From NCBI GenBank assembly GCA_021805885.1, contig JAJZDR010000083.1, positions 1 to 19,457 of the forward strand: 19,457 bases of DNA, given 5' to 3'. Shown piece after piece: positions 1,687-15,542 of the stretch. This DNA comes from a bacterium. GTDB taxonomy: Bacteria; Patescibacteria; Dojkabacteria; JAKAPS01; JAJZLI01. Both the position numbers and the translations under genes were made by a program. The notes under the pieces were generated by a model, which saw only the letters and a list, made by a program, of their open reading frames with translations, searched no databases and was not told the DNA's origin. The first letter of the stretch is position 1. Every line of letters starts with the position of its first letter.

Positions 1687-3357
1687 CTATAATTTGTCCT
1701 CTTCTAAAGCTATATTAGAAGTTTCTATTTTAGGAAAGATTATATATGGTTTATTTATCTTTGCATCAAATCTTTTGTATTTAAATTCAGAGATTTTAAT
1801 ATTTAATATTTTTGATAATTTTTCTGCACCATCAGGTGTAATAGGAGAAAGAATTATGTTAAGTGCATAGACGTACTGCATTAGTCTATATATATCTTCT
1901 TTAGAATTGCTTTTCCATATCGCTATATCATTAAATAATTTATTTGCATGATCAGAAAATTCCAAAATATTACGCACTGCATTTTGGAATTGAAAAGACT
2001 CTATATTTAAAGAAACTTTATTAATCATATCTTCTATGTATTTTTCATCATCTATTTCATGTGACTTAAGAGTTTCTCCATTAAAATTTTTATATAAGAA
2101 AGTAAGTGTTCTATTGATATAATTACCTATATTTGAAGAAAGATCAGAGTTTATAGATGTTATAAATTCCTTCCATGTAAAATTGAAATCTTTATTTTCT
2201 GGCATATTTGCTGTGAGATAAAACCTACTTTGGTCTGTCCCATATTTAGAAACTAGATATTCTGCTGGTAAAATATGATTGTTACTTTTTGACATTTTTT
2301 CTCCCTCTAAAAGAACATATTCATTGGCAACAATATTAGTTGGTAATGACAGTTCTTTGTTATATCCAATAAGAATTGAAGGCCATATAATAGTATGAAA
2401 TATTATATTATCCTTAGCCATGAAATATATGGATCTGGATCCAGATTTTGAGTTTTTAGAAAAGTAATCATTCCAATTATTTCTTTTGTATTCCTTAGTA
2501 GCAGATAAATATCCTATTACTGCTTCAAACCATACATATATAACTTTGTTTTCATATCCCTTTAAGGGTACAGGTATCCCATAATTGAGATCTCTTGTTA
2601 TTGATCTATCAAATAGTCCATCTTTCATATATGCAAGAGAGAAGTCTATAGTATTTTTTCTAAATTGGTGATTACCGTTTATATATTTTTTAATTTTTTC
2701 TTCAAAATTACCAAGTTTAAAGAAGAAGTTTTCAGTTTCTCTAAGCTCAGGAGTGGATCCACATATTTTACATCTTGGATCTTTTATATCATCAAAAGTT
2801 ATAAAGGAATTACAACGCTCACAACTTTCGCCAACTCTTACATTTTCTTTACCACATTTAGGACATGTACCTAGTACATATCTATCTGGTATAAACCTAT
2901 TATCATTCAAACAGAAAGGTTGTTTTTCTAAACCCTTTATTATGTGTCCTTTTTTATATAGATCAAGAAATATTTCTTGTACTGTATCTTTGTGGTTTTT
3001 AGTTTCCGTACTAGTCCATAGATCATAATCTATTTTAAATAATTTTAGTGTCTTATCCCAAATCTTGTTGGATGTTTTTGCAAACTCTGATGGGTCTTTA
3101 TTCTCAATTTCTGCCTGTAGTTGTACTGGAGCTCCATGCATGTCTCCCCCAGATACAAATATTGTATCCATACCTTTAAGTTTTAAATAGCGATGATATA
3201 TGTCTGCAGGTAGGTAACATCCCGCTATATGTCCCACATGTGGAGCCCCATTTACATATGGCCATGAGGTTGTAACCAGATACTTTGGATCTAGATCATT
3301 TGAGACAAGTCCCTTTGGATCTAGATCATTTTGGCTAAATTCCTTATTTGTCTTCAT
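1687..3357 (-). CDS. metG: Methionyl-tRNA synthetase
   Basis: This class I synthetase charges tRNA-Met. Visible signatures are the HVGH form of the HIGH motif (residues 40-43), the KMSKS loop exactly (354-358), the conserved entry sequence KYLVTTSWPYVNGAPHVGH, and three CxxC knuckles in the zinc-binding insert (C165/C168, C179/C182, C196/C199). The FVSGGDMHGAPV segment replaces the usual CGTDEHG. The chain ends after the anticodon-binding helical domain at 556 residues and lacks the C-terminal EMAP/tRNA-binding domain of many bacterial MetRS. An N-terminal extension of about 24 residues precedes the catalytic core and consists of pentapeptide units (KEFSQ, NDLDP, KGLVS, NDLDP, KYLVT) encoded by 15-base repeats. 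A TATAAT box lies only 7 bases before the ATG, supporting this start and suggesting a leaderless mRNA. A further palindrome (ATCTGGATCCAGAT, 2433-2446) encodes a Ser/Gly loop near residue 305. Confidence 0.96.
   Translation of the reverse strand: MKTNKEFSQNDLDPKGLVSNDLDPKYLVTTSWPYVNGAPHVGHIAGCYLPADIYHRYLKLKGMDTIFVSGGDMHGAPVQLQAEIENKDPSEFAKTSNKIWDKTLKLFKIDYDLWTSTETKNHKDTVQEIFLDLYKKGHIIKGLEKQPFCLNDNRFIPDRYVLGTCPKCGKENVRVGESCERCNSFITFDDIKDPRCKICGSTPELRETENFFFKLGNFEEKIKKYINGNHQFRKNTIDFSLAYMKDGLFDRSITRDLNYGIPVPLKGYENKVIYVWFEAVIGYLSATKEYKRNNWNDYFSKNSKSGSRSIYFMAKDNIIFHTIIWPSILIGYNKELSLPTNIVANEYVLLEGEKMSKSNNHILPAEYLVSKYGTDQSRFYLTANMPENKDFNFTWKEFITSINSDLSSNIGNYINRTLTFLYKNFNGETLKSHEIDDEKYIEDMINKVSLNIESFQFQNAVRNILEFSDHANKLFNDIAIWKSNSKEDIYRLMQYVYALNIILSPITPDGAEKLSKILNIKISEFKYKRFDAKINKPYIIFPKIETSNIALEEDKL
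3272..3346 (-). repeat. Tandem 15-bp palindrome-like units in the metG N-terminus
   Basis: On the plus strand the 15-base units are 3272-3286, 3287-3301, 3302-3316, 3317-3331 and possibly 3332-3346. Units 2 and 4 are identical (GGATCTAGATCATTT), giving an apparent 30-base period. Unit 1 (GTAACCAGATACTTT) and unit 3 (GAGACAAGTCCCTTT) have different arms but are again nearly self-complementary around a two-base centre. Because the length is a multiple of three, the array adds pentapeptides without breaking the metG frame. Confidence 0.65.
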
Positions 3358-3387: not shown

Positions 3388-3753
3388 CTATATAATGCTT
3401 ATTAAAAAATAGAGTATTATTGCTGTTGTAGGTATAGCAAATATCATTAGTATGTCTAATTCACCGAACACTCTTAAAAGTATCATTATAGATATTGTTA
3501 GAGGAATTATTATTGAATTTTTTATGAAATTTTTTGGGGTTGGTTTTATAAGGGAAACAAAAAAAGTTATAAAAAAGAATAATATAAAGAATATCTCTAA
3601 TACTACTATATATATATTTAAAGTAATAATATTTCCATTAGAGTTTTTGGGAGTTATAAGAAAATTAGTTGTTACAATGAATGCTATTATAAATAACAAT
3701 AGACCATATAAGATTTTTTTTATATGTTTTTTATGTTTAATCTTTTTTTCCAT
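3388..3753 (-). CDS. Small four-helix membrane protein of unknown function
   Basis: I do not recognise this family. The 121-residue protein starts with a very basic cytoplasmic stretch (MEKKIKHKKHIKK) followed by four hydrophobic segments at roughly 14-33, 46-68, 79-95 and 98-121, with short loops. This topology puts the N-terminus inside. Its start overlaps the end of the RimK-like gene by 17 bases on the same strand, so it is very likely translated from the same mRNA as the ligase cassette and may be its membrane partner; that is inference from position only. The opposite strand has an open frame of similar length (3452-3769). I prefer this one because of its clean membrane topology, its same-strand overlap and the lack of any promoter or neighbour logic for the other. 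Confidence 0.75.
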   Translation of the reverse strand: MEKKIKHKKHIKKILYGLLLFIIAFIVTTNFLITPKNSNGNIITLNIYIVVLEIFFILFFFITFFVSLIKPTPKNFIKNSIIIPLTISIMILLRVFGELDILMIFAIPTTAIILYFLISII

Positions 3754-4570
3754 TGAGGCAATATTCTAATATATCTTCTGCTATATTTTGTCCTACAGCC
3801 TTAGAAATTCCTGAAATGCCAGGTGTTCTATTTACTTCAAGTATGTAAGCCAAATTATTTTTCAAAAGTATATCTACTCCTGCAATTTTAGCATTTAGAG
3901 TATCTGCTGCAGAATGTGCAAGATTAATAATTTTTTTTGAAAGATCAATTTTTTTAACTGTTGCCCCCATATGATAATTAGCTTTAAATTCACCTTTTTT
4001 AGGAATTCTTTCCATGGCAAATTCTTTGTTACCTATTATGAACACTCTTAAATCTTTAGTATAAGGTATATATTCTTGTATTATATAATGGTGATTCAAA
4101 TCATAGAGTAATAATTTTTTAAGTTCATTTTTATTTTTAATCATAAATACTCCTTTCCCCTGCATTGAGTTTATTTTTTTTGCTATTACTGGGTATTCTA
4201 TATTTATATTATCATCATATTCATAAGTTTTTGGATGGGGTAATCCAGATTTTTGGATGATATAACTATCATATAATTTATTAATGGCATATTTAGTATA
4301 GAGCATATTATTATCAAAATATTTTACTTTGTTATCATTTAAATATTGTGATATAGTTACTGCTTTTTTTATATCATTAATTGCTCTGTAGATTATATAA
4401 TCAAAAAATTTTAATGGCTCTTTATTATATATAAATTCAGAAATATCTAGATATACTTTTTTAATATCTATTATGTCTATCTTATGTCCAATTTTCTCTC
4501 CAGCTTTAATAAAAAGTAAATTTTCTTTATTTTCAAGACTTGGGAGGGAAGTTAAAATACCTATTCTCAT
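3737..4570 (-). CDS. RimK-like ATP-grasp amino-acid/peptide ligase
   Basis: The 277-residue protein has a RimK/LysX-type ATP-grasp fold. It has an N-terminal pre-ATP-grasp domain (about 1-90, starting MRIGILTS), the glycine-rich loop SMQGKGV (135-141), the nucleotide-binding QEYI (165-168), DLRVFIIG (173-180), NYHMGA (198-203) and the metal-binding EVNRTPGI (245-252). Family members join an amino acid to a carboxylate through an acyl-phosphate, for example glutamate added to ribosomal protein S6 by RimK, or LysW modification by LysX/ArgX. The substrate here cannot be read from sequence. Its ATG overlaps the TGA of the upstream ligase/protease by 4 bases (ATGA), implying translational coupling. 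This suggests it works with that protein, perhaps adding a second kind of residue to the same target. Confidence 0.9.
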   Translation of the reverse strand: MRIGILTSLPSLENKENLLFIKAGEKIGHKIDIIDIKKVYLDISEFIYNKEPLKFFDYIIYRAINDIKKAVTISQYLNDNKVKYFDNNMLYTKYAINKLYDSYIIQKSGLPHPKTYEYDDNINIEYPVIAKKINSMQGKGVFMIKNKNELKKLLLYDLNHHYIIQEYIPYTKDLRVFIIGNKEFAMERIPKKGEFKANYHMGATVKKIDLSKKIINLAHSAADTLNAKIAGVDILLKNNLAYILEVNRTPGISGISKAVGQNIAEDILEYCLNGKKD

Positions 4571-5952
4571 TTTGTTACATCTAATAAAAAGTTTGAAAGA
4601 TCTTTCCTTCCTATAATTATAGGATACCTCATATACGATCTTTGAGCAATTGTAAATTCAGTATCAATAATTACATCTGTGTCACAGAATTCCAAAGATG
4701 TAGAAATTACAGGTCTTATTGAAAAACCATTTGCAGATCTAATAGATTTTAGGTTTAGAGTATACTTTTTTTTAAGTTCTTCTTCTTTGATATTGATATT
4801 TCCAATATTTAAATTTAAAGGCGTGTCAATTTTATTAAAATTTTCTAATATTTTGTCATACCCTAGTTCTTTTGCAATATCTTCTGATATTGAAGATGTA
4901 TATGCCCCACTATCCACTTTTGCCTCTGCTGGAGTTGTCATATTTCCTATTAAAACCTTTACTTTTTTTCCTATTATTATTTTTCCTGTAAGCTCATTTA
5001 CTTCTTCTTCAATCTCACCACCAAATATCTCTTTAGCTATTCTTATTGAAGATTGAGGGTTTTTTGTTTTTATTTTTGAGACAGATAATAATCTTTCCTT
5101 TAATCCATCATTATTTGCAATTTGTATTGCTAGCCCCGGCCTTGCATTTACTTCCAATATTAAAGGTCCATTATTTTTATCTATGGCAATATCAACTCCA
5201 AGGAATTTTGCATTAATAGCTATGGATGATAGTATGGACATCTCTAATATTTTATTCCAGTAAGGTATTTTTATTCCACCAAGTCTTTCTCCTGTATCTG
5301 GATGAACTTCTATAGAAGAATCTTTCAATATTGCATTTGTGGTTATTCCATTTGCAATATCAATTCCAACTCCAACACCTCCAGAGTGAAGATTTGCCTT
5401 CCCTTTGGATTCTATTGTAGGTATCCTACATTCAGCCATTATTGGAATATTTCTATATACAATAACCCTAATATCGGGCAATCCTTGTTTTGTAAATTTT
5501 GAAAATAAAGGAATTACTTTTATCCTTTCTTCAAAAAGAGCAATATCATCTCTTGAATTTATAGAGAAGTTGCCATTTAGAATGTCTAAAATGTGGTTTT
5601 TTAATTTTGTTAATGTCATAACCTCTTTGTTTGGCATTACCCAAGAATCTTCTTCTTCCTCACTCTTTTTTTTCTTTTTTCCATATACAATAATTATACC
5701 TTCTCCTCCTAGCCCTCTATTTGGTTTAAGTACAAAACTTAAAGGTAGAGTAGAAAAATCAAAATTATTAAATTCTGCTAAATCTTTAATTGTTGCAATA
5801 GTTTTTGATACAGGAATATTAAAATCTTTAAGTCTTTTTTTAGATCTTATTTTTGAGTTAGATATAACTGTAGCCTTTTTATCTATAAAGAGTAGATTTC
5901 TGGCATTCATGCCTAAAAGTCCTTTTGATTTTTCCTTTGATATACCTATCAT
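4567..5952 (-). CDS. Fused alpha-L-glutamate ligase-like ATP-grasp and retropepsin-like (RimB-type) protease
   Basis: Residues about 10-290 match the alpha-L-glutamate ligase-like ATP-grasp family (TIGR02291/ATPgrasp_ST): LGMNARN (13-19), KPNRGLGGEG (76-85), EERI (141-144), DIRVIVYR (160-167), KANLHSGGVGVGIDIA (185-200) and EVNARPGLAIQIAN (267-280). Residues about 325-461 match the RimB/Zn_protease family (Pfam PF05618), a retropepsin-fold aspartic peptidase despite its name. This part has the catalytic motif VDSGAYTSS (D347-S-G) and the terminal RSYMRYPIIIGRKDL. In most bacteria these are separate genes placed next to a 7TM protein; here they are one chain, with that 7TM gene directly upstream. 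A Lys/Glu-rich loop (about 91-102) interrupts the ATP-grasp part. The fusion suggests ligation and trimming of the same peptide tag, which is inference. A unit with AAGGA precedes the start; the stop overlaps the RimK-like ATG. Confidence 0.93.
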   Translation of the reverse strand: MIGISKEKSKGLLGMNARNLLFIDKKATVISNSKIRSKKRLKDFNIPVSKTIATIKDLAEFNNFDFSTLPLSFVLKPNRGLGGEGIIIVYGKKKKKSEEEEDSWVMPNKEVMTLTKLKNHILDILNGNFSINSRDDIALFEERIKVIPLFSKFTKQGLPDIRVIVYRNIPIMAECRIPTIESKGKANLHSGGVGVGIDIANGITTNAILKDSSIEVHPDTGERLGGIKIPYWNKILEMSILSSIAINAKFLGVDIAIDKNNGPLILEVNARPGLAIQIANNDGLKERLLSVSKIKTKNPQSSIRIAKEIFGGEIEEEVNELTGKIIIGKKVKVLIGNMTTPAEAKVDSGAYTSSISEDIAKELGYDKILENFNKIDTPLNLNIGNINIKEEELKKKYTLNLKSIRSANGFSIRPVISTSLEFCDTDVIIDTEFTIAQRSYMRYPIIIGRKDLSNFLLDVTK

Positions 5953-5999
5953 TTGGGTCTATATCCTTCGGTGCTGAGTACCTTGGTACTGAGTACCTT
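5953..5999 (-). repeat. Three tandem 15-bp palindrome-like units between 7TM and ligase/protease genes
   Basis: Units begin at 5955, 5970 and 5985 (plus strand GGGTCTATATCCTTC, GGTGCTGAGTACCTT, GGTACTGAGTACCTT). Each has a 12-13 base near-palindrome followed by a short pyrimidine spacer, and the second and third differ at one base. Together they fill essentially the whole intergenic gap. In the leftward mRNA they could form small hairpins or pair with each other just before the ligase/protease start codon. Confidence 0.7.
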
Positions 6000-6634
6000 T
6001 AGTCTTTTATTAATTTTCTAAATCTAAAATATTCTGTTAATTTTAAAGAAGTTACTCTTCCAATGTATAGATCAAATATTATTGCAATAAGTGATAAAAT
6101 AGGATACTTTAAAATTATAGTTCTAAAATCAGAAGATCCAATCATTATATATATCAATAGTCCAATTATTATAGTTTGGATATATATATAATTTCCATGT
6201 CGTTCACCTTTCTTAATTTTTATTGTAGCCAAAGATTCTCCAAGTAACATTAGTATTAATATTGCATATATTGACACTTCATGATGATAATTAAACAATG
6301 CATGTGCACTATATAAAGATGCTATTATTGCAAATGATATAAAAGATATTGTTAAAGCTTCTTTAGCTGTGTGATGTAGAGTGAAATTTTTGATTAAATA
6401 TCTTAATATAATCTCAAAAATCAGTATATATAAAACAAAAAATATACCATACAATAATCCTGTTGCAAAGAAAGCTAATATAGAGACTACTGTTATATAT
6501 AGATTAAATGTTTCAAATCCTATTATTTGCCTTATAAAAACTATAAATAATGCTATAACGGGTATGGCTAGCAATATATATAATGCGTTTTGGTTAATCC
6601 CAGATTGTATTAAAAACAAAGATAATTGTCCCAT
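5999..6634 (-). CDS. 7TM domain protein of the transglutaminase-linked family, without the transglutaminase part
   Basis: The 211-residue protein has seven hydrophobic segments (about 16-38, 41-59, 60-82, 90-112, 118-137, 148-166, 174-193). I recognise the pattern of the 7TM module (Pfam 7TM_transglut, PF14402) usually fused to an inactive transglutaminase. RQIIGFETF near residue 35 and the end IGRVTSLKLTEYFRFRKL correspond to the family's RQ.IG..TF and LGR.TG..L.E..RF.. motifs. Family proteins are encoded beside an alpha-L-glutamate ligase-like ATP-grasp and a retropepsin-like protease, exactly as found here downstream. Only the membrane module is present, with no room for the periplasmic transglutaminase-like part. 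It probably anchors or scaffolds the ligase/protease at the inner membrane, or moves its substrate; the family's biochemistry is unsettled. A TATTAT box lies 8 bases before the ATG, so this gene likely opens the cassette transcript. Confidence 0.85.
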   Translation of the reverse strand: MGQLSLFLIQSGINQNALYILLAIPVIALFIVFIRQIIGFETFNLYITVVSILAFFATGLLYGIFFVLYILIFEIILRYLIKNFTLHHTAKEALTISFISFAIIASLYSAHALFNYHHEVSIYAILILMLLGESLATIKIKKGERHGNYIYIQTIIIGLLIYIMIGSSDFRTIILKYPILSLIAIIFDLYIGRVTSLKLTEYFRFRKLIKD

Positions 6635-6642
6635 ATTGTCCT

Positions 6643-6648
6643 ATAATA
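6643..6648 (-). promoter_or_regulatory. Putative -10 box for the ligase/protease cassette
   Basis: Read leftward the hexamer is TATTAT, 8 bases before the 7TM gene's ATG. The 108-base gap upstream (6635-6742) holds no gene. It contains another TATAAT-like stretch near 6695-6700 and a weak AT-rich inverted repeat (ATAGA/TCTAT) but no T-tract terminator. Confidence 0.45.
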
Positions 6649-6742
6649 TTTTAAACTATCTGTATATACCATATTTTAGATAGATTTGTCTATTATTATA
6701 GTAGTGGATAAGAATATATTTGTAAATAAAATATACTTAATT

Positions 6743-7657
6743 TTATATTAAAAGTTGTAATAGATCTTTTAATTCTGGAGTTTTTAATTTTTTCAAGGCT
6801 TGATATTCAATATTTCTAACTCTTTCTCTTGTAATTCCCAATTTTAAAGCTATCTCTTGTAATGTTTTTTGAGAGTTTTCATCAAGTCCAAATCTAAGTT
6901 TGATTACAGTTCTTTGTTTTTCTGTTAAGTTTGCCCCATCTAAAATAGTGTAAAATTTCTCTTTAAATTCTTTCTGAACAACTATTTCTGTTGCAAGAAT
7001 ATCTGGTGGAGGAAAGCTTTTATCTTCTATAAAATCACCCAGTTCCGCCTCCATTTCATTTCCTATTGGCGTAGATAAAGAGATCGGTTGTATTGAGGTT
7101 ACATGAATGTCATGAATCTTTTTTTCTAGAATTCCTGTTTCTTCCCCAATTTCATCTTCATACGGAGATCTTCCAAGTGCTAATGATAAAGTATTTCTAA
7201 CACTTTGTATTTTATGTATTATTTCCGTACGATGTAGAGGTATTCGTATAACTTTATCTTTGTCTGCTATAGCTCTTGTTATAGCTTGCTTGATCCACCA
7301 AGAAGCATATGTTGAGAATTTAAATCCAAGTTTGTAATCAAATTTTCCTACAGCAATCATTAATCCTATATTACCTTCTTGTATAAGGTCAAGTAGCATT
7401 AATTTTTCGGTATGATATTTTTTTGCAATTGATACAACAAGCCTTAAATTTGACTCTGCTAAAGACTTTTTAGCTTTAATAACTTCCTCTGGAGTACCTG
7501 ATTCAATTTTCTTACCTAATTCTACTTCTCCTGCTCTAGTTAAAAGTGGAAATTGTCTGATTTCTTGTAGATAAATTTTTACTGGATCTAGATCGGTTGT
7601 GTTATCTAAGTACTCCACAAATTCATTACATTCTGATTCTTCTTTAAAAACTTCCAT
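6743..7657 (-). CDS. Sigma-70 family factor lacking region 1.1 (third of three)
   Basis: This 304-residue sigma factor has region 1.2 ([19 protein letters not shown]), region 2 ([45 protein letters not shown]), region 3 and region 4 ([27 protein letters not shown]). The residues that read the -12 base in E. coli sigma-70 (Q437, T440) are kept, so it should use a TATAAT-like -10. In the -35 helix the residue matching Q589 is Asn (RERVRNIE). It has only a short acidic N-terminus in place of autoinhibitory region 1.1, as in group 2 sigmas. It has diverged more from the primary factor than the second paralogue has in region 4. It is the last of three same-strand sigma genes, 54 bases after the middle one, and may share transcription with it. 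Confidence 0.93.
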
Positions 7658-7711
7658 AATATTTAATAGACCTTATAACTATATTACGACCCATAGTATT
7701 AGTCAATGATT

Positions 7712-8602
7712 TTAGATATAATCACGTAATGTCCGTAAAACTTCTTCAGTTCTTAATTCGTTCAAAACTTTAGATTCAATCTGCCTTATTCTTTCTTTTG
7801 TTAGTTTAAATTCTTTTCCAATCTCCTCAAGTGTTCTAGTTATGCCATCATTAAATCCAAATCTTAGTTCTATTATTCTTCTTTCTCTCTCTGATAATTG
7901 TGATAATAGTTGACTAATTTTTTCTTTTAGAAAATCTTGAGCTACTATTTCATCGGGGGGTATATTATTTTTTGATATAACAAACTCACCTATAGTAGTA
8001 GACGTAAAGGTAGAGGGAGCATAATTCTCTGTACTTACTGGAGTTGATAACGAGATAGGGTATTGAGACATGCTTATAATTTGTTGGATTTTCTCAGCAG
8101 GCTTTCCTATTTCCTCAGCTATTTCATTTAGAGAAGGTTCTCTTTGAAGGTTTTGAGAAAGTATATTTCTTAACCCATTTATTCTTTTACTATAGATTAT
8201 AACGTTGTGTGGTATACTAACGCTTCTGGCTTGTGGGCCTGCTCTTTCAATAAAATGTTTTATCCACCATGTCGCATAAGTGGAAAATTTATACCCTTTT
8301 TTATAATCAAATCTTTCCACGGCTTTTATGAGCCCAAGATTTCCCTCTTGTATTAAATCAAGTAAATCTAGTCCGCAAGAGTTATATGCTCTCTTTGCAA
8401 AATATACAACTAGCCTTAAATTAGCAATAGTTAATTGTTCTGCAGCTTCTATATCACCTTCTGCCATTTTTTGACCTAATTTTACTTCGGCCTCTTTTGT
8501 TAGAAGAGGTATTGTATAAACTTCTTCCAAGTAGGCATCTATAGGGTCTACCATAATCTTGCCTGGTTCATCTTGATAATATCTTGTTTTTAAAATCTCC
8601 AT
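7712..8602 (-). CDS. Sigma-70 family factor with altered -10 recognition residues (second of three)
   Basis: This 296-residue paralogue keeps sigma regions 1.2 (VDPIDAYLEEVYTIPLLT), 2.1-2.3 ([36 protein letters not shown]), 3 and 4.2 (LEEIGKEFKLTKERIRQIE). Region 2.4 is clearly changed. The [14 protein letters not shown] sequence of primary factors is WWIKHFIERAGPQ here, with one residue missing before SVSIP. The positions matching E. coli sigma-70 Q437 and T440, which read the -12 base pair, are His116 and Glu119. In the -35 helix the Arg matching R584 is Lys. The aromatic residues that melt the -11 position (Y104, F106, Y109, W112, W113) remain. It is therefore probably an active sigma with a shifted -10 preference. 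Region 1.1 is absent, and an extended Ser/Thr-rich loop follows SLSTPV in region 3.2. Confidence 0.93.
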   Translation of the reverse strand: MEILKTRYYQDEPGKIMVDPIDAYLEEVYTIPLLTKEAEVKLGQKMAEGDIEAAEQLTIANLRLVVYFAKRAYNSCGLDLLDLIQEGNLGLIKAVERFDYKKGYKFSTYATWWIKHFIERAGPQARSVSIPHNVIIYSKRINGLRNILSQNLQREPSLNEIAEEIGKPAEKIQQIISMSQYPISLSTPVSTENYAPSTFTSTTIGEFVISKNNIPPDEIVAQDFLKEKISQLLSQLSERERRIIELRFGFNDGITRTLEEIGKEFKLTKERIRQIESKVLNELRTEEVLRTLRDYI

Positions 8603-8627
8603 AATGAAATTATTAAATAACCTAGTG

Positions 8628-8633
8628 ATTATA
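8628..8633 (-). promoter_or_regulatory. Putative -10 box of the second sigma gene
   Basis: A leftward TATAAT lies 25 bases before the ATG at 8602, in the 79-base gap after the primary sigma gene. This would give a short leader of about 18 bases, unlike the leaderless spacing at other genes here. No ribosome binding site is obvious in that leader. Confidence 0.35.
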
Positions 8634-8681
8634 CTATATATTCATAAAATTTATTAATATTAGTGTTTGATATGGTTATTT

Positions 8682-9797
8682 TTATATATAATCTTGGAGG
8701 ATTTGTTTGACTTCTTTAGTGTTTAGTTTTTTTAAAGCCTTAGATTCAATTTGCCTAATTCTTTCTCTTGTTACTTTAAATTCTCTTCCAACCTCTTCAA
8801 GAGTTCTTGCAACACCGTCTTGAAGTCCAAATCTTAATTCTATAACTTTTCTTTCTCTATCAGATAAGCCTGATAAAACATCACTAATCTGATTTTTTAG
8901 AAAATCTTTTGAGGCTACTGCTTCTGGCAATGGGTTATCTTCATCTGCAATAAAATCAGCTATTGTACTTGATCCAGATCCGTCATCTCCTACAGGAGTT
9001 GACAGTGAAGTAGGGTATTGAGATATCTTTATAATCTCTTCAACTTGATCTACAGTTTTACCCATCTCTTTAGCTAATTCCTGTGACGATGGAGCTCTCT
9101 GTAGTTTCATAGATAATGTACTTCTAACTTTTTGAAGTTGATGAATAGTTTCAATCATATGAACAGGGATTCTGATTGTTCTTTCCTGATCTGCAATAGC
9201 TCTTGTTATTGCTTGTCTGATCCACCATGTAGCGTAAGTTGAGAATTTATATCCTCTTGTATAATCAAATTTATCAACAGCTCTCATTAATCCTATATTA
9301 CCCTCTTGAATTAGGTCAAGAAGACTCAAACTGCCCCCTTTATAATATTTTTTGGCAATTGATACGACTAGTCTTAAATTTGCAGTAGTTAAATATTCTG
9401 TTGCTTCTTTATCACCACTTTTTATTCTTTTAGCAAGTACTACTTCTTCCTTTCCTGTTAGAAGTGGGATTTTTCCTATTTCTTGAAGGTATGCTCTTAT
9501 TGGGTCTGAGTCAATATTAGATTGTATGCTTTTTAGTATCTTAATCTTGTCCTCTAGAGTTATATCTTCTTTTTTTACAGCTACTGGTTTTTTAGATTTA
9601 TCTTCGTAATCATCTTCCTCATATATAATTTCTAAATTTTGCTTTGCTAACTCAATAAAAAGCAAGTCAATATTGTCAATATTGTTTTCAATATATGGGA
9701 TTTCACTCAAAACGTCTGATTCTAATAGATATCCTTTGTTTAAAGCAAGAGTCAACAACTTTTGTATTGATTTTTGGGTAAGCTGAGGTTCCATCAT
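8682..9797 (-). CDS. rpoD: Primary RNA polymerase sigma factor (first of three)
   Basis: This is the housekeeping sigma. Region 1.1 occupies about residues 5-65 ([19 protein letters not shown], ending [10 protein letters not shown]). An acidic/basic linker follows, then region 1.2 ([17 protein letters not shown]), region 2 ([46 protein letters not shown]), region 3, and region 4.2 with a canonical TRERIRQIE. All -10 and -35 contact residues are standard, and it is the only one of the three paralogues with region 1.1. The frame can be opened further to a TTG at 9827. I chose the ATG at 9797 because a TATAAT box lies 10 bases upstream of it (inside the longer reading) and because region 1.1 begins normally from there. 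Its divergent neighbour starts at 9860. Confidence 0.95.
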
Positions 9798-9807
9798 AAG
9801 CTTCTTA

Positions 9808-9813
9808 ATTATA
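9808..9813 (-). promoter_or_regulatory. Putative -10 box of rpoD
   Basis: Leftward TATAAT, 10 bases before the ATG at 9797. If used, the mRNA starts only a few bases before that ATG and cannot include the upstream TTG at 9827, which decides the start choice. The -35 area (about 9831-9836) is a poor match. Confidence 0.5.
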
Positions 9814-9820
9814 TCATATA

Positions 9821-9848
9821 TTGTCAAATAATTTATATGTTATATAAT
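9821..9848 (+). promoter_or_regulatory. Putative promoter of the 6TM protein gene
   Basis: A -35-like TTGTCA (9821-9826), a 16-base spacer and a perfect TATAAT (9843-9848) stand 11 bases before the ATG at 9860, so the leader would be about 4-5 bases. It overlaps the upstream part of the leftward rpoD promoter region, making this a compact divergent control region. It is the best two-box promoter in the window. Confidence 0.6.
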
Positions 9849-14885: not shown

Positions 14886-15542
14886 TTATTTAAGTTTTTC
14901 TTTTAATCCTTTAATATCCTTATTCCATATTTCTCCGTCAAACCAAGATAATCCTTTAAATTGTAATTTATATATTGACTCTTTTTTATATACACTTCCA
15001 AGGTAAATATACTTAAGATTATGCTCTTTTGCAAAAATTATTGCTTTTAACATCATACATATTCCCATATTTGAATTGAAATATGAAAGATCATAGAAAG
15101 GATATGAATAGTGTACCATAGAATTATTCATGTATGACAGTGCATATCCTTGTGCAGAACCTACATTATTTAAATTTTTATCTTTATAAATAAAAACTAT
15201 ATTCATGTTGGATTTATCCATATTCATAAACATTTCTCTGATTTTATTAGCAGTCATTACTTTATCTCCAAATCTTGTTTTATAATATATAAATCCCATT
15301 TTATGTATAGTATAAGCGTACTTATTATAAGGTAACTCTTGTTTTTCTATATATATATTTTCAGTTTTTTTTAAAATTCGTCTATTTTCACTTGTTAATT
15401 CAAAATCTTCTAAGTCTAACCTTAGGCTTCTTATCTTCTGCATAACATTTTTTCCTTTTCTTACAAAAACAAACCCTTCATTATAAAGGCTTGCTATATC
15501 ATCTGTATTTTTAATTGTTATCTCCTTATAATATTCATACAT
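14886..15542 (-). CDS. ATE/Bpt-like (GNAT-fold) aminoacyl-tRNA-protein transferase homologue
   Basis: The 218-residue protein resembles the arginyl- or leucyl-tRNA-protein transferase family. IRSLRLDLEDFELTSENRRI (37-56) matches the family's RxLRxDxxxFxxSxxxRRxLRR block. The later segment KYIYLGSVYKKESIYKLQFKGLS, with DGEIW after it, matches the YYLGYWIxxCxxMxYKxxFxP block. These enzymes transfer an amino acid from aminoacyl-tRNA to the N-terminus of a target protein, marking it for degradation. The N-terminal Cys cluster of true ATE proteins (CPGC) is absent, and the C within the YxI..C block is replaced by Lys/Glu, so substrate or even activity may differ. It could also be a FemX-like or plain GNAT acyltransferase. 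A perfect TATAAT lies 6 bases before its ATG, and it heads a three-gene leftward unit. Confidence 0.75.
   Translation of the reverse strand: MYEYYKEITIKNTDDIASLYNEGFVFVRKGKNVMQKIRSLRLDLEDFELTSENRRILKKTENIYIEKQELPYNKYAYTIHKMGFIYYKTRFGDKVMTANKIREMFMNMDKSNMNIVFIYKDKNLNNVGSAQGYALSYMNNSMVHYSYPFYDLSYFNSNMGICMMLKAIIFAKEHNLKYIYLGSVYKKESIYKLQFKGLSWFDGEIWNKDIKGLKEKLK

Follow-up and report, generated by a model that had tools for sequence, protein, structure and literature searches.

The nearest known system to the genes described here is the rlo operon of Pseudomonas aeruginosa, rloABC, which has been studied by genetics and structure determination and with an assay of poly-Glu cleavage (PMC12239564). 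In that study the retropepsin RloA is secreted, contacts poly-Glu through K46, R114 and R137, and cleaves chains of eight or ten glutamates (8E, 10E) but not 6E or shorter; R114A/R137A impair this cleavage most, and mutation also impairs rescue in vivo. The triple rloA mutant regains growth under hypo-osmotic stress when rloB or rloC is lost. RloB, whose inactive transglutaminase domain is predicted to lie on the periplasmic side, has matches that were described as 96% proteobacterial. That work leaves the substrate of the protease open. Here we analyse a related four-gene operon at positions 3388–6634, minus strand, of a 19,457-nucleotide contig (JAJZDR010000083.1, assembly GCA_021805885.1) from a bacterium of the Dojkabacteria within the Patescibacteria; this whole stretch of DNA is called the window throughout.

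Like the rlo operon, the window operon has members of the retropepsin, PF14402 and TIGR02291-like families next to one another on the same strand, and the catalytic aspartate of RloA and its K46, R114 and R137 all have counterparts. It differs in that ligase and retropepsin are fused, ligase first, with no segment resembling a signal peptide (judged by hydropathy only), and in that the RloB-like protein lacks the inactive transglutaminase domain, in place of which four of five longer relatives carry PKD domains. Extra ATP-grasps are sometimes present, and some relatives have a MATCAP-family metallopeptidase in place of an intact retropepsin. The curated cut-offs would not admit the operon to the Rlo system; we regard it as a real and conserved variant of that system rather than as something of a new kind. 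An earlier note on this DNA had called the neighbourhood of the first three components, as found in proteobacteria, known but functionally unsolved: known it is, but the genetics, structures and poly-Glu assay of rloABC mean that it is no longer wholly unsolved. Our preferred reading, to which we give about an even chance, is that the operon encodes a membrane-coupled cytosolic writer and eraser of glutamate-rich peptide chains.

Two further systems bear on this reading. RimB cleaves polyglutamate and stimulates poly-alpha-glutamate synthesis by RimK, and RimB–RimK pairs and the RimBK hybrid likewise join a retropepsin to a cytosolic ATP-grasp (PMC11957791). In the hybrid RimB lies N-terminal to RimK, whereas the window has the reverse order and a ligase of the TIGR02291 kind; no PF14402 partner is mentioned in the text consulted. 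In the TTL/TTLL and MATCAP/TMCP system an ATP-grasp-related writer is opposed by a MATCAP-family eraser, as in the fusions of the relatives, but the system is eukaryotic, consists of separate proteins and acts on tubulin, and the window operon has no MATCAP; TMCP1/MATCAP and TMCP2 shorten the glutamate chains of tubulin, and MATCAP/TMCP enzymes also remove tyrosine (PMC10499314). In titles and abstracts of the open-licence PMC literature we found no earlier description of the system in Patescibacteria, nor of a ligase–MATCAP fusion.

Core genes and their conservation

The operon is transcribed in the order membrane protein, fusion, RimK-like ligase and four-transmembrane (4TM) protein. The earlier note had described four tightly packed same-strand genes with overlaps of 4 and 17 bases, and we find these as four minus-strand open reading frames (ORFs), the first overlap lying between the fusion and RimK-like genes and the second between the RimK-like and 4TM genes. 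Its family assignments (7TM PF14402, TIGR02291-type ATP-grasp, PF05618 retropepsin and RimK-like ligase) were borne out by Pfam and NCBIfam matches. The fusion matches PF14397 (6.8e-59) and PF05618 (1.4e-9; 38.4 versus 27 bits), and the NCBIfam matches to TIGR02291 (2.3e-71), RloA3 (2.2e-11), RimB (3.6e-7) and RloB (1.8e-15) all lie under their curated cut-offs, at 240.4 versus 314.2 bits for TIGR02291, 43.7 versus 210 for RloA3 and 56.7 versus 900 for RloB. Both ligases of the window match PF03133 TTL above the Pfam cut-off.

The fusion protein (4567..5952, minus strand; 461 amino acids) consists of an RloC-like ATP-grasp domain (residues ~1–310; approximately 5042..5952) and a C-terminal retropepsin domain (residues ~325–461; approximately 4567..4980), and its AlphaFold2 (AF2) model has a predicted local distance difference test score (pLDDT) of 85.7. 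The nearest solved structures of the ligase domain are ArgX, RimK and LysX, and its K34, K76, D254, E267 and N269 are conserved. The retropepsin carries the catalytic motif D347-S-G, and K345, R413 and R438 align with K46, R114 and R137 of P. aeruginosa RloA (structures 9G58/9G59). The two arginines are 23 residues apart in 9G58 and 9G59 (as 114/137) and 25 apart in the window, and both align with the family profile. The retropepsin is predicted to form an active homodimer that would cleave polyglutamate.

Hydrophobic segments were called from 19-residue hydropathy at a threshold of 1.6, by hydropathy alone and with no signal-peptide predictor. The fusion protein has none, its highest value being 1.52. 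Because the retropepsin forms the C-terminal end of an ATP-dependent ligase that has no such segment, it should lie in the cytosol, and since both domains belong to one soluble protein, ligase and protease would share a compartment; the fusion protein is thus probably cytosolic. Two proposals of the earlier note need correction: the protease is a domain of the ligase rather than a separate component, and a cell-surface target is not favoured.

The RloB-like membrane protein (5999..6634, minus strand; 211 amino acids) matches PF14402 (1e-17; 64.9 versus 25 bits; profile positions 52–247 of 248) as its sole domain, with no transglutaminase or other extracytoplasmic domain by Pfam. Six hydrophobic segments were found, and an AF2 model (mean pLDDT 90.3) places helices at the same six positions, with additional helical stretches at 3–10 and 45–58; '7TM' is the name of the family, and seven segments are neither shown nor excluded for this protein. 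In consensus the membrane protein carries a conserved motif, RLSEYxRFR, at its C-terminal end. Among 86 relatives sampled across the phylum, 27 are short like that of the window (one of these, the 145-amino-acid L193, is truncated where its contig stops), 14 are of middle length and 45 are long. PKD matches were found in four of five long proteins scanned and in a sixth (L023), and a transglutaminase match in none of the five. The extracytoplasmic part of RloB is thus exchangeable, and it is absent from the window protein.

We examined conservation in two samples: the best 80 of 312 confirmed related loci, a set skewed to Moranbacteria-like genomes, and 286 genomes drawn evenly from the phylum of the genome that carries locus L007 (Patescibacteria). 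RloB (PF14402) and strong RloC matches (best TIGR02291 piece of at least 170 bits) occur in the same 86 of the 286 phylum genomes and the other 200 have neither; weak TIGR02291 matches only, of at most 43 bits, were seen in 20 further genomes. The two genes adjoin in 83 of 86 loci, and in the remaining three (L126, L127 and L154) the stretch stops at a contig end and the ligase lies on another contig. Among the related loci, the membrane gene precedes the fusion gene in 79 of 80, with both on one strand and at most 488 bases apart; in the exception, L056, the contig extends for 289 bases there. This pairing is far beyond chance. Flanking genes vary by group (RuvC–YebC-like genes, ribosomal proteins or sigma factors, named by eye), so the pairing is more than mere synteny. 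The co-occurrence that the earlier note had proposed to look for is, for RloB and RloC, exact in this sample, and the view of ligase, protease and membrane module as the core is upheld.

The fusion is not private to the window genome. A search with the fusion protein found 4803 relatives among 7998 scored candidates; where the source name includes an organism, the best 120 listed come mostly from Patescibacteria lineages. A homologue from a Patescibacteria metagenome-assembled genome is 91% identical, and that of the closest related locus, L001, from a genome of ~0.8 Mb, is 89% identical. An RloC ORF of at least 400 amino acids was present in 81 of the 86 phylum loci (L118, L126, L127 and L154, at contig ends, and the broken L129 were left out), and all 81 carry either the ligase–retropepsin fusion or the MATCAP form described below.

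MATCAP fusions and the retropepsin site

In 25 of these 81 loci a MATCAP-family metallopeptidase (PF08014) stands in frame behind the ligase, with the motif HExxxH in 24 of the 25 copies; iterated profiles served to tell ligases and MATCAP apart. Bacterial MATCAP relatives are QEGLA-like and are also called DUF1704. The window has no MATCAP fused to the fusion gene or near it. Between ligase and MATCAP lies a domain of ~110 residues, which profile comparison of 23 of the 25 fusions (L140 and L144 were left out) identified as a retropepsin: the profile of this middle domain matched intact retropepsins at E 7.3e-18 and stand-alone RimB-like proteins at 9.3e-12, while neighbouring domains, compared as four controls, gave 0.19–0.88.

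The active site of this retropepsin is lost where MATCAP is fused or adjacent. Counted by alignment column (a regular-expression match in L133 fell outside the active site), 54 of the 56 fusions without fused MATCAP keep D[TS]G, versus 2 of the 25 with it (L164 and L169). In the two exceptions without fused MATCAP, L138 and L145, the catalytic aspartate is replaced by asparagine and a MATCAP gene with HExxxH lies directly downstream. The positions of R413 and R438 hold arginine in 52/56 and 43/56 fusions without MATCAP, respectively, and in 0/25 with it in either case, and the five ligase residues are all present in 55/56 and 25/25. Each of the 81 loci retains at least one intact peptidase site, that of L140 in an overlapping second ORF. 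On a ligase tree of 90 rows, the retropepsin site was lost at three places, each with MATCAP fused or adjacent. That relatives have disabled the retropepsin and carry an unrelated peptidase in its place suggests that adding and trimming are together the purpose of the system, and the retention of the dead domain also points to a non-catalytic role for it, either in pairing or, on the model of RimB and RimK, in stimulating the ligase.

The link extends beyond the fusions. PF08014 was found in 62 of the 286 phylum genomes, comprising 50 of the 86 with RloB versus 12 of the 200 without. Eighteen phylum genomes have PF05618 without RloB, and in the 17 examined (L201–L217; G144 was not among them) a RimK-like ATP-grasp lies beside the retropepsin or is fused to it in 16; 8 of the 17 stretches also contain a MATCAP gene. 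Because of these 8 of 17 stretches and the excess in RloB-positive genomes, we conclude that MATCAP travels with ligase–retropepsin pairs in general. It seems to us plausible, at slightly under an even chance, that Patescibacteria carry a membrane-coupled writer of the polyglutamate type in one protein with its own eraser, and that this eraser has been exchanged during evolution, being the retropepsin in most lineages seen and MATCAP, behind a dead retropepsin, in others. As a separate observation, locus L071 of the related set (3891–6761) encodes a 956-amino-acid triple fusion of ligase, retropepsin and MATCAP in which D[TS]G is intact and the MATCAP lacks HExxxH; a further MATCAP gene with HExxxH lies downstream.

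Accessory genes and surroundings

The RimK-like ATP-grasp ligase (3737..4570, minus strand; 277 amino acids) matches PF08443 (3.2e-35; 121.9 versus 21 bits) and scores 140.2 against a cut-off of 143.4 for TIGR00768. It is 54% identical to the ligase of L004, its best relative, and ~29% identical to the two ligases of L001, compared with 89% for the fusion. The ligase cassette changes more quickly than the core does, which is how a specificity module would behave. Within 6 kb downstream of the fusion, with contig ends uncorrected, we found one or more further ATP-grasps in 66/80 related and 32/83 phylum loci, and saw none in 14/80 and 51/83. Two of nine representatives tested best match cyanophycin synthetase (TIGR02068), at 182 and 252 versus 850 bits, so that its ATP-grasp part resembles some of these downstream enzymes at scores far below the cut-off; the window ligases have no such likeness. 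Proteins of 541–607 amino acids with a RimK-like N-terminal domain, which clustered together, are encoded at L036:9403–11175, L072:2345–4168 and L171:5792–7417; in L036, the only one of the three scanned, the C-terminal half has no Pfam match at 0.001.

The 4TM protein (3388..3753, minus strand; 121 amino acids) is lineage-specific, with four hydrophobic segments by hydropathy; neither Pfam nor NCBIfam gave a match at E ≤1. It was found in seven loci among the window and the 80 related loci, the window included, and as three proteins, itself among them, in a large protein database. Since L002, L003, L005 and L006 keep its gene without the RimK-like gene, in near relatives it belongs with the core and not with RimK. 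The earlier note had counted both the RimK-like and the 4TM protein as part of the set; both are present in the window, but they are optional, as the loci without a further ATP-grasp and the restriction of the 4TM protein to near relatives indicate.

The membrane and fusion genes are separated by 46 bases (5953..5998) in which GGTACTCAGYACC occurs twice; each copy is partly self-complementary. No further site was found in the window at up to two mismatches and no match in loci L001–L006; in L001 the gap is a single base and has no copies. Directly upstream of the operon lie three tandem sigma-70-like genes (6743–9827, minus strand; 304, 296 and 381 amino acids), as also in the neighbourhood of L001, with one each in L002–L007; metG- and tatD-like genes lie downstream (all named by eye from translations). 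With these flanks, the operon sits in a housekeeping neighbourhood. Near the start of the metG-like gene (~3275–3345, minus strand), AATGATCTAGATCCAAAG occurs twice as a short direct repeat and encodes NDLDPK twice. Further away, the gene at 14886–15542 (minus strand) has a weak match to PF04377, the C-terminal part of arginyl-tRNA-protein transferase (24.8 bits versus a cut-off of 25); its product, too, may be an enzyme that attaches amino acids to proteins or peptides as a tag.

Candidate functions of the operon

We infer the chemistry, the acceptor and the membrane role of the writer and eraser as follows. The RloC-like ATP-grasp, aided by the RimK-like ligase, would use ATP to attach amino acids, L-glutamate being the most likely, to an acceptor. 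The fused retropepsin would pair with a second copy to form an active site and cut chains once they are long enough, so that their length is limited, and the RloB-like membrane protein would either anchor the enzyme or report the state of the envelope to it. Polyglutamate is proposed because two unrelated peptidases, each active on polyglutamate elsewhere, stand behind one ArgX/RimK/LysX-like ligase. This evidence is convergent but indirect, and other acidic or mixed chains could also fit.

Several points weigh against this reading. A Fisher test of D[TS]G against MATCAP fusion gives 9e-16 but takes no account of kinship, and the three changes for fused MATCAP and five for D[TS]G on the tree are few independent events, giving two to three pairs in a paired test, too few for significance; for these reasons our argument rests on the pattern and not on the p-value. 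The two peptidases are not mutually exclusive: an intact retropepsin and a nearby same-strand MATCAP gene with HExxxH occur together in 5/81 phylum and 8/80 related loci, and 12 phylum loci have a MATCAP gene nearby on the opposite strand. The position of K345 (K46 in RloA) holds lysine or arginine in only 44/56 fusions without MATCAP, and in 9/25 with it. TIGR02291 exceeds its curated cut-off in none of the 286 phylum genomes. The secretion of RloA in Pseudomonas places it in a different compartment, and the D. psychrophila RimBK hybrid cleaved polyglutamylated RpsF but did not show glutamylation of P. fluorescens RpsF (PMC11957791). In the literature consulted we saw no glutamylation assay of any RloC. 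We know of no assay for any of the proteins described here.

The alternative that survives best, although we consider it unlikely, is an envelope polymer pathway, in which the ligases make a poly-amino acid or peptide, the membrane protein exports or flips it, the product joins or regulates the wall, and the peptidase releases or sizes it. A PBP1A gene (named by eye) is present in 46/80 related and 11/86 phylum loci, and among the other neighbours a glycosyltransferase gene recurs in 9/81 and a Mur-ligase-like gene in 4/81 neighbourhoods, both assigned from a Pfam scan of a single representative, as does a gene named YdjC-like by eye in 5/81. Pseudomonas rlo mutants also have cell-shape and ampicillin phenotypes (PMC12239564). 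However, we detected no PBP1A gene in the examined stretches of 75/86 phylum loci, nor in the window, and the linkage may be clade synteny, with RuvC- and YebC-like genes recurring too; the model of the membrane protein had no PDB match at E ≤0.001 and no clear likeness to a transporter.

It is rather improbable that the retropepsin mainly pairs with and stimulates the ligase, with trimming secondary or absent. The dead domain kept in the MATCAP fusions and the stimulation of RimK by RimB noted above are consistent with such a role, but a purely structural role does not predict the near-universal retention of D[TS]G in fusions without fused MATCAP, in which both exceptions have a MATCAP gene adjacent. 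A cyanophycin-like storage polymer or a peptide natural product, in which several ATP-grasps would build a mixed peptide that is later degraded, we regard as very unlikely. The frequency of further ATP-grasps in the related loci, the two representatives that best match TIGR02068 and the graspetide clusters reported in bacteria of the candidate phyla radiation (CPR; PMC8939145) argue for it; against it, the second ligase of the window best matches RimK models, with cyanophycin synthetase at only 29 bits, and most phylum loci show no further downstream ATP-grasp.

Ribosomal protein S6 as the target, suggested by homology to RimK and RimB, is highly improbable, as the phylum has separate pairs of a RimK-like ligase and a retropepsin that lack the membrane protein. 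In genomes chosen from the strongest matches listed, and not at random, S6 ended in glutamate in 1/20 RloB-positive and 2/19 RloB-negative genomes (controls lacked RloB, PF05618 and PF08014; one of 20 controls, L240, gave no S6 ORF), with no association in this small sample.

For the writer and eraser of glutamate-rich chains that we prefer, the fusion has a practical consequence: the substrate of the peptidase is probably the product of the ligase to which it is joined, and with both predicted activities in one protein the question of the substrate becomes testable with a single purified protein. The MATCAP link leads to polyglutamate by a second and unrelated route, and from it a function can be predicted for the bacterial relatives of MATCAP. 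The Rlo-type system is extended from a mostly proteobacterial range to 86 of 286 sampled genomes of the Patescibacteria. If the reading is true, Rlo-type action in Patescibacteria would be placed in the cytosol, bacterial MATCAP relatives (QEGLA-like) would be predicted deglutamylases, and the ligase and its eraser would correspond, in bacteria, to the ligase/MATCAP pair by which the tubulin code is written and erased.

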